Source: Thermotogaceae bacterium
Lineage (GTDB): Bacteria > Thermotogota > Thermotogae > MWEM01
DNA length: 36,384 bases
Direction of reading: 5' to 3'
NCBI GenBank assembly: GCA_030445775.1
Contig: JASUTC010000016.1
Coordinates: forward strand, 1-36,384
Shown here: positions 34,381-36,384 of the stretch, piece after piece
Position numbering within the stretch: the stretch's first letter is position 1
Layout: each line of letters begins with the position of its first letter
Translations under genes and position numbers: made by a program
The notes under the pieces: generated by a model
Told to the model about the DNA's origin: nothing
The model's database searches: none
Seen by the model: the letters and a program-made list of their open reading frames with translations, nothing else

Positions 34381-34495
34381 TTTACGAATTATAACATTTT
34401 CCTTTACTATCCCAGGGATGTGTTAATTAAGTTTTATAAGAAAGTTATGTATGCTACAAATATTCATTTGAACCCTACAAAAGGAGTGGTTAGAG

Positions 34496-34529
34496 ATGAA
34501 TAGGAAGATTTTGTTAGTTTTGGTTTTAT
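34496..34529 (+). pseudogene. 5' remnant of a signal-peptide ORF interrupted by the IS1634-like element
   Basis: AAAGGAGTGGTTAGAG-ATG AAT AGG AAG ATT TTG TTA GTT TTG GTT TTA TCC (MNRKILLVLVLS), then the IS end begins. Confidence 0.6.
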
Positions 34530-34545
34530 CCTACATTCGCAAAAT

Positions 34546-36153
34546 CTATAAAGAGGGAGGCTCCACCCCCAAATCCCGGAAAAGCTGCTCCTGCTTTTTG
34601 GCCATCTCACCAAGAATTCTTCCATGTCCAGGCGCCTCAAAGAGCTCAATTGAATCCAATTCATCCAATAGACCCTGCAGTGTCCATTTTTCAAACAGCT
34701 TGGCCTCTTGCATCTTCTTTTTCACATAAGACAGGTAAATTAATGCAATAAACTCCACAAAAAGCTTCCCGTTCAATGACAATTCAGAAGAAACCTGCAT
34801 TCTTCTGAAGTTCAACCGGTCCTTCAAATTACCAAATGCCTTTTCGACAATATCCTTACTCCGGTAAAGGGATAGGGCGACAAAAGGATCTTTGATCTCG
34901 TTGGACAGCAAGGCAAAGTACCCGAAATTCTTCGCTGCTTCTCGTATGGCCTCTTCCTTGGGTTCAACTTTACGTCCCCGATTGAGGGTTTCACTCACGG
35001 TAAAGTATTTGTCGTATTCGTTGGCATCATACTCCCAGCGTTTCCCGGATAACAAATCGTTTTGAAGCTGTGTCAGATGATCGTTCATGGCCACCTGATC
35101 TTTGGCCGCCTTTTCGGGATTGTAAAACACGAACAGATACGCCCGTCTTTTTTCTTTCACAACATCGCCCTTATAGGGACGCTCTTGTTCATAGTCCCAC
35201 TCAATGGGTCGACAAATGCCATTGGTGTGAAATGGTCCCTGCAAGTGGGTCCACAATTTCAAGTTCTCCCGTTCTTCATCCAGGATCGTTTTCACGTATT
35301 TCAGATTGAGTTTCGTCCCAACGATGAATTTCTGGTGATGCTGGTACAGGGCATTGATGTTCTTTTGAGAGTAAAACCCGCGATCCAGTACGAGTTTGAT
35401 CTTTTTATAGCCCATCACATCGAATTCTTCCACCAGCTCCCGGATGGTGGACACATCGGTAATATTCCCCGGGAGTTTGCGATAGTAAAAGGGCAATCCG
35501 GATGCTTCTCCAAATAACAAGGCCAGATTCAGTTGCGGGAGGCGATCGTGTTCTTTGTTTTTGCCTCGCTTGACCTGCTTGAGGACGTCTGAATAACTGG
35601 AGATGGAAGTGGTATCAAAGACCCAATATTCTTTTTCCAACCGTCTTTTCCCCTGTTTCTGGAAGAACCTCATCCGGCTGGCCTCATCGATGGATTGAAA
35701 CAGATCACTACTTCTTTGTGAGGGGAGGTCTTCTCCATACGGATGGCTATGTGTTTTCTGCCAATGGGAAAATCGACTCAACGGGTTGTTCTCTTCCAGA
35801 ATCAGGTAATAGGCTACCGAGAGTATTTGTTTGTACATCTCAGGAAAACAGCTCTTTAAATCCGCTGTGAGGCCAATCGTTTCTCCGATTTGGTCAAATA
35901 GATAGATAGCCCCGAAAAAGCTTCGTTTAATGGTTGTGATCGGTAGGGGGCCTTGTTTGGCTGGCGGAATCTTCATGTGTTCCGATTGTTTCTTATAGGG
36001 TCTTGTGGGGATAATTTCCCCGGTTTCTGGATCGACTTTCCCGATGAGTTTCCGTCTGGCTCTGGATTGTTGTTTGTCTTTGTCCCAATATGCCTCATTT
36101 TCATACGCATAGGTGATACCCGTTTGTTTGTTTTTCTGGTAAATAATACCCAT
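34546..36153 (-). CDS. IS1634/IS4-superfamily DDE transposase
   Basis: MGIIYQKNKQTGITYAYENEAYWDKDKQQSRARRKLIGKVDPETGEIIPTRP; WVFDTTSISSYS; KKIKLVLDRGFYSQKNIN; YRSKDIVEKAFGNLKDRLNFRRMQV. ATG at 36153. Confidence 0.92.
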   Translation of the reverse strand: MGIIYQKNKQTGITYAYENEAYWDKDKQQSRARRKLIGKVDPETGEIIPTRPYKKQSEHMKIPPAKQGPLPITTIKRSFFGAIYLFDQIGETIGLTADLKSCFPEMYKQILSVAYYLILEENNPLSRFSHWQKTHSHPYGEDLPSQRSSDLFQSIDEASRMRFFQKQGKRRLEKEYWVFDTTSISSYSDVLKQVKRGKNKEHDRLPQLNLALLFGEASGLPFYYRKLPGNITDVSTIRELVEEFDVMGYKKIKLVLDRGFYSQKNINALYQHHQKFIVGTKLNLKYVKTILDEERENLKLWTHLQGPFHTNGICRPIEWDYEQERPYKGDVVKEKRRAYLFVFYNPEKAAKDQVAMNDHLTQLQNDLLSGKRWEYDANEYDKYFTVSETLNRGRKVEPKEEAIREAAKNFGYFALLSNEIKDPFVALSLYRSKDIVEKAFGNLKDRLNFRRMQVSSELSLNGKLFVEFIALIYLSYVKKKMQEAKLFEKWTLQGLLDELDSIELFEAPGHGRILGEMAKKQEQLFRDLGVEPPSL

Positions 36154-36164
36154 ACACTCATCTC

Positions 36165-36194
36165 CCTCGTTATATATTATAATATATAACGAGG
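36165..36194. repeat. 30-bp perfect palindrome CCTCGTTATATATTATAATATATAACGAGG
   Basis: Exact self-complementarity read from sequence; sits between the transposase promoter and start codon. Confidence 0.95.
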
Positions 36195-36204
36195 TAAAAG
36201 TCAA
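36176..36204 (-). promoter_or_regulatory. Transposase promoter (minus strand)
   Basis: Minus strand TTGACT (36204-36199), 17-nt spacer, TATAAT (36181-36176). Confidence 0.7.
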
Positions 36205-36384
36205 TGGCTTTTCTTTGTGTTATTTTTTAATCGCTCTTATAGCCCGTTGGTATCGTTACACTTTTTGGGAATGTAGGTTAGGAGTTTCATTGAAAATCCT
36301 AAGGAATTTACTTCTCAAATTCCACGTATCAACGGGACTGTCTCCCGGAAGTTAAATATATATTTCAAATTTCTTTATTATTCA

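Follow-up and report, generated by a model that had tools for sequence, protein, structure and literature searches.

Near one end of a 36,384-nt stretch of a Thermotogaceae genome (the window), the -10 promoter element of an insertion sequence (IS) transposase gene lies within a long perfect palindrome, one arm of which runs into the Shine-Dalgarno (SD) sequence of the same gene. We asked what such a palindrome is for, and whether it acts on the transcript, on the DNA or on both.

The palindrome, promoter and SD sequence

The palindrome (CCTCGTTATATATTA/TAATATATAACGAGG; 36165-36194, unstranded) is perfect over 30 bp, with 15-bp arms and no loop, and comprises two inverted half-sites TATAACGAGG around the -10 element. 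Its length is far beyond chance: the other perfect palindromes of the window reach 16 bp at most, and those in 60 first-order Markov windows did not exceed 20 bp. The promoter, TTGACT-N17-TATAAT, is located on the minus strand at 36204-36176 (-35, 36204-36199; -10, 36181-36176; spacer of 17 bp), and was the top match, with 11 of 12 positions, in a sigma-70 scan of 34400-36384, a region in which promoter-like matches overall are no more frequent than in shuffles. The SD sequence, GAGGGAG (36168-36162, minus strand), is followed by the transposase ATG at 36153-36151 on the same strand. The coordinates and sequences given by an initial annotation for palindrome, promoter and SD were all confirmed on the letters, including the sharing of the first four SD bases, GAGG, with the palindrome arm; the -10, which it had placed at the centre, is offset from the dyad by one base. 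The putative transcription start, at about 36168-36170, falls within the right arm, so that the predicted native leader is only ~15-18 nt long. Rfam and tRNA scans of the whole window gave no match.

The transposase and the ends of the element

The gene (34546-36153, minus strand) encodes a 535-residue transposase with an intact DDE frame, which matches the IS1634 family model NF033559 with 317.8 bits (cut-off 100) and also matches DDE_Tnp_1. As delimited by its ends, the element spans 34530-36277, and the genome assembly contains it only once. Both ends carry CCTACATT, in agreement with the C-----YT end form of the IS1634 family. The left terminal inverted repeat (TIR), CCTACATTCCC...TGTAACGATA (36251-36277, minus strand), contains the internal half-site TGTAACGATA at 36260-36251, a motif in common with the palindrome. 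In the right TIR, CCTACATTCGC...TATAAAGAGG (34530-34556, plus strand), this half-site is degenerate: relatives have TATAACGAGG, and the TATAAAGAGG of the window copy has lost the invariant C. A target duplication, expected to be 5-6 bp for IS1634, was not visible around the window copy; 6-bp duplications are clear in many relatives, and we take the apparent absence here to reflect decay or recombination of the window copy rather than a place outside the IS1634 family. Since its right half-site is degenerate and its target duplication not visible, the window copy may be immobile.

The C-terminus of the transposase extends into the right end, in the window and in relatives alike. An AlphaFold model of the full protein was poor (mean pLDDT 64), and a fold search of the PDB with this model returned no meaningful match; an N-terminal three-strand β-sheet is tentatively assigned.

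Occurrence of the palindrome among relatives

Relatives were collected from 26 loci on genome contigs, supplemented by whole-genome searches and plasmids, giving 103 non-redundant upstream regions, 74 of which belong to the clade of the window element and form 50 clusters. A search of viral contigs and phage records yielded none. Nearly all clade members have an inverted repeat centred on the -10 (median offset 0, s.d. 2.8; 50 clusters), and the promoter palindrome is conserved in ~45 non-redundant clusters. The half-sites are mismatched in L134, L106, L148 and L090, and in the distant members L091/L175 the end-derived palindrome (CCGACTAAAA, TGTGACTAAA) is located downstream of the -10 and ends before the SD. 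In the IS1634 subgroup comprising L059, L067 and L092, no such operator was seen. Among cluster representatives, the gap between half-sites is bimodal, falling either at 5-10, where 6 and 9 predominate, or at 14-18, where 14 and 16 do, with overall peaks at 6, 14 and 16; the modes of 6 and 16 differ by close to one helical turn, an argument from helical phase that is suggestive only.

The palindrome half-site recurs in the element ends

In each relative, the ~8-10 bp palindrome half-site recurs just inside the TIR, behind the conserved tip CCTGnATTCCCG; it is seen in the left TIR of every relative, and in the right TIR where visible. The types common to palindrome and ends are TAACGA, TACCAA (the L022 type), TACCTA, TAACCTAC, TAACTA and TAACGTGT, joined by GCCCATACAA (L161) and the L091/L175 pair given above in more distant elements. 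Across lineages the half-site takes the forms TAACGAGG/TAACGATG, TACCAAGG, TACCTATG, TAACCTAC, TAACTATG, TAACTAGG and TAACGTGT, and the ends change alongside; in the distant L091 it is TTCCGACTAAAA.

The best 10-mer match of an arm scored 8.73 of 10 against the TIR of its own element, compared with 7.58 against the TIRs of other elements and 6.72 for a shuffled arm, and the value for the own TIR was reached in 0 of 100,000 permutations. At the variable positions +2, +4 and +5, the two arms pair with each other in every one of the 44 clusters and match their own TIR in 95, 90 and 90% of cases, respectively, as against 72, 47 and 75% across elements. Because permutations ignore descent, the co-change test was repeated on a transposase tree, which was built without the N-terminus. 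TIR and palindrome changed to the same base on the same branch 14 times, compared with a null of 3.4 ± 1.7 (maximum 10 in 5,000). The site over the promoter has its sequence in common with the terminal recognition site, as expected of a transposase-autorepressed promoter of the IS1 or P element kind.

The transposase as candidate reader of the half-site

A copy of the TIR that co-varies with the ends points to the transposase, the TIRs being its sites by definition. Transposase residue 30 (KQQ-S30-R-A) and half-site base +4 correspond in 59 of 62 cases across the clade, the best result among the N-terminal columns scanned; the residue sits in the predicted N-terminal β-sheet. Its context is SRAK in TAACG elements, with P, A or T in the others. 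The association involves only ~4-5 independent changes, for which an independent-pairs test is underpowered and cannot reach significance, and residue 30 is a candidate specificity residue at a suggestive level only.

A proposed operator for the transposase

We consider it probable, and the best explanation, that the palindrome serves the element's own transposase as an operator for autorepression. In the proposed mechanism, the operator is formed by an inverted pair of the inner (recognition) segments of the TIR, each lacking the conserved outer tip CCTGnATTCCCG, and its dyad falls on the transposase -10. The transposase, presumably dimeric and using its N-terminal domain, would bind this site, and the bound protein would block RNA polymerase at the promoter. 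By blocking its own promoter, the transposase would make its expression self-limiting, falling as copies accumulate, and as the tip is absent from the operator, binding without cutting would be expected. Since one arm reaches into the SD, an external transcript would carry both arms and fold the SD away, and in several lineages the arms have grown longer than the end-derived half-site and surround the whole SD. From sequence, we infer all three elements of this scheme, namely the transposase as the binder, binding as repression and the lowering of translation by the hairpins.

Predicted RNA folds and a possible read-through guard

The initial annotation had explained the palindrome as a guard against read-through, proposing that an SD-masking hairpin forms in transcripts reading in from outside, whereas those started internally leave the SD free. 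Both folds are borne out by prediction. The read-through RNA of the window (-24.8 kcal/mol, z -5.2) has the SD within the stem and the native-start RNA has it open, with predicted SD opening costs of 11.1 and 0.5 kcal/mol, respectively. Predicted burial recurs in most relatives: over 47 clusters, the mean opening cost is 2.9 kcal/mol for the native RNA, 11.3 for the read-through RNA and 5.8 with the left arm scrambled, and the read-through value exceeds the native one by at least 3 kcal/mol in 43 of the 47. Much of this RNA fold is forced, as a by-product of any perfect DNA palindrome.

The covariation check suggested in the annotation gave a divided answer, as the arms do co-vary beyond the half-site but the half-site itself follows the TIR. 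In the zone from +8 to +11, past the half-site, pairing is 1.86 of 4 positions compared with 1.25 (0 of 20,000), and 14 compensatory same-branch co-changes were found against 3.8 expected; this zone has no resemblance to the TIR. Pairing there is evidence of selection for pairing as such. The arms of L010, L137, L144 and L160 enclose the entire SD. Strongly extended arms were seen in no more than ~8 of 57 rows, and the arms of the window element stop at the half-site. Hairpins resembling intrinsic terminators occur on the sense strand between left end and promoter in 6 of the 47 clusters (L089, an element of a Carnobacterium plasmid, L095, L019, L148, L151 and L015), with 0.1 expected and 1 found on the opposite strand, which fits selection against read-through. 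An RNA-level guard was probably also selected in the lineages with lengthened arms; judged by the predicted folds, a guard of this kind is a plausible second layer for the window element, and the case for it is stronger where the arms are long.

A different arrangement was observed in a sister IS1634 subgroup (L064, L078, L040, L062, L073, L074 and L083), in which a stem, CTTGATTTCATAATA / TATTATGAAATCAAG, abuts the SD upstream of tnp. Its 24-nt loop contains the -10, and it has no TIR similarity. Where the stems of L062 and L078 differ, A has been replaced by G opposite a T, giving a G-U pair, which an RNA guard predicts.

Alternative explanations

The strongest alternative is a dual function from the outset, in which DNA operator and RNA guard were selected equally throughout the family. 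It differs from the operator-first reading solely in the family-wide extent of guard selection, and our confidences in the two overlap and are not additive. With a read-through opening cost that is higher by the above margin in 43 of 47 clusters, and co-variation both within and beyond the half-site, this account has some probability but is less likely than not, given how few rows have strongly extended arms, that the window arms end at the half-site, and that much of the RNA fold is unavoidable in a perfect DNA palindrome.

We consider it unlikely that the palindrome was selected for the guard only, that is, because external transcripts hide the SD and an internal start leaves it free. Such a guard does not predict that the arm is the internal TIR motif and changes together with it, a relationship that the initial annotation had overlooked. 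In the core, at +6/+7, hardly any asymmetry is a G-U pair (2%, compared with 8-10% across elements), and the palindrome is kept even where more than half of the SD is outside the arm, as in 24 of 47 clusters (at least half is inside in the other 23); in L091/L175 it is placed downstream of the -10 and does not reach the SD. What the guard does account for is the predicted folds and SD opening energies, the pairing of the arms beyond the end-derived half-site with the SD wholly enclosed in four lineages, and the SD-abutting stem around the -10 of the sister group (L064, L078), which lacks TIR similarity. Because the half-site co-varies with the ends, the core asymmetries are not G-U and the palindrome persists with the SD outside, autorepression appears to be the better primary explanation.

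Palindromes covering the -10 are typical of repressor binding, and the element might use a host repressor to stay silent; we rejected this reading as very improbable, as the half-site varies by element and tracks the element's own ends rather than the host, a pattern that a host protein would not produce. Least probable of all is a product of chance or decay, or a bidirectional promoter. A perfect AT-rich palindrome centred on ATTATAAT does write a -10 on the opposite strand too, but chance was rejected on the conservation over ~45 clusters, and a divergent promoter on the better -35 match of the sense strand (3.91 versus 3.15 of 6; 5 versus 3 in the window).

Relation to known systems

Two components of the proposed scheme have precedents, in IS1 InsA autorepression and in the combination of a terminator with an SD-occluding hairpin (IS200). 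In IS1, the promoter P-IS1 overlaps IRL and is repressed by InsA (PMC12428005). The likeness is that a TIR-binding protein represses the element's own promoter, as we propose here from sequence. In IS1, however, the left end doubles as the operator and a separate truncated product acts as repressor, whereas the window promoter is located ~75-100 bp inside the element, with its own tip-less pair of inverted half-sites and one full-length protein only. In IS200, stem-loops stop transcription that enters from outside and mask the ribosome-binding site (PMC3196728). Comparable features here are the predicted SD-hiding hairpin and the terminator-like hairpins of 6 of 47 relatives. The IS200 hairpin is not known to include a promoter or an end-derived operator, unlike the window palindrome, which contains the -10 together with end-derived half-sites.

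In IS10 and IS50, only the external transcript contains the inverted repeat that sequesters the signals for translation start. The same division is predicted here, with the SD-sequestering repeat carried by external transcripts only; the IS10/IS50 repeat lies at the element's end, whereas promoter, operator and hairpin would here be one palindrome. In the Drosophila P element, a transposase site overlaps the core promoter (TATA box) and represses it, much as proposed for the present site. That element differs in being eukaryotic, in having a single site rather than a palindromic pair, and in having no known RNA guard.

The IS1634 family, which is related to IS4, has the end consensus C-----YT (De Palmenaer 2008, PMC2266710), and the elements studied here have in common with it the transposase family, the C-----YT ends and, in relatives, duplications of 5-6 bp. 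Neither a promoter palindrome nor an end-derived operator is described in the passages of that survey consulted, nor does the word 'promoter' appear in its text. A merged end-derived palindrome is likewise not described in the open literature searched.

Implications for the IS clade

More broadly, and as a tentative proposal that we hold a little short of an even judgement, a whole IS clade may carry a three-in-one palindrome that serves as -10, as operator of two tip-less end sites and as SD-hiding hairpin, with a single evolving half-site, read by the N-terminal domain of the transposase, directing cutting as well as self-silencing. An apparent RNA curiosity thereby becomes a testable control circuit common to a widespread IS clade. 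If the proposal is true, each element would gauge its own transposase by means of an uncuttable copy of its own ends, and element type, operator and ends would evolve together as a single orthogonal code. The variety of half-sites found in nature would then offer ready-made orthogonal transposase/operator pairs, and a route to the residues that read the site.
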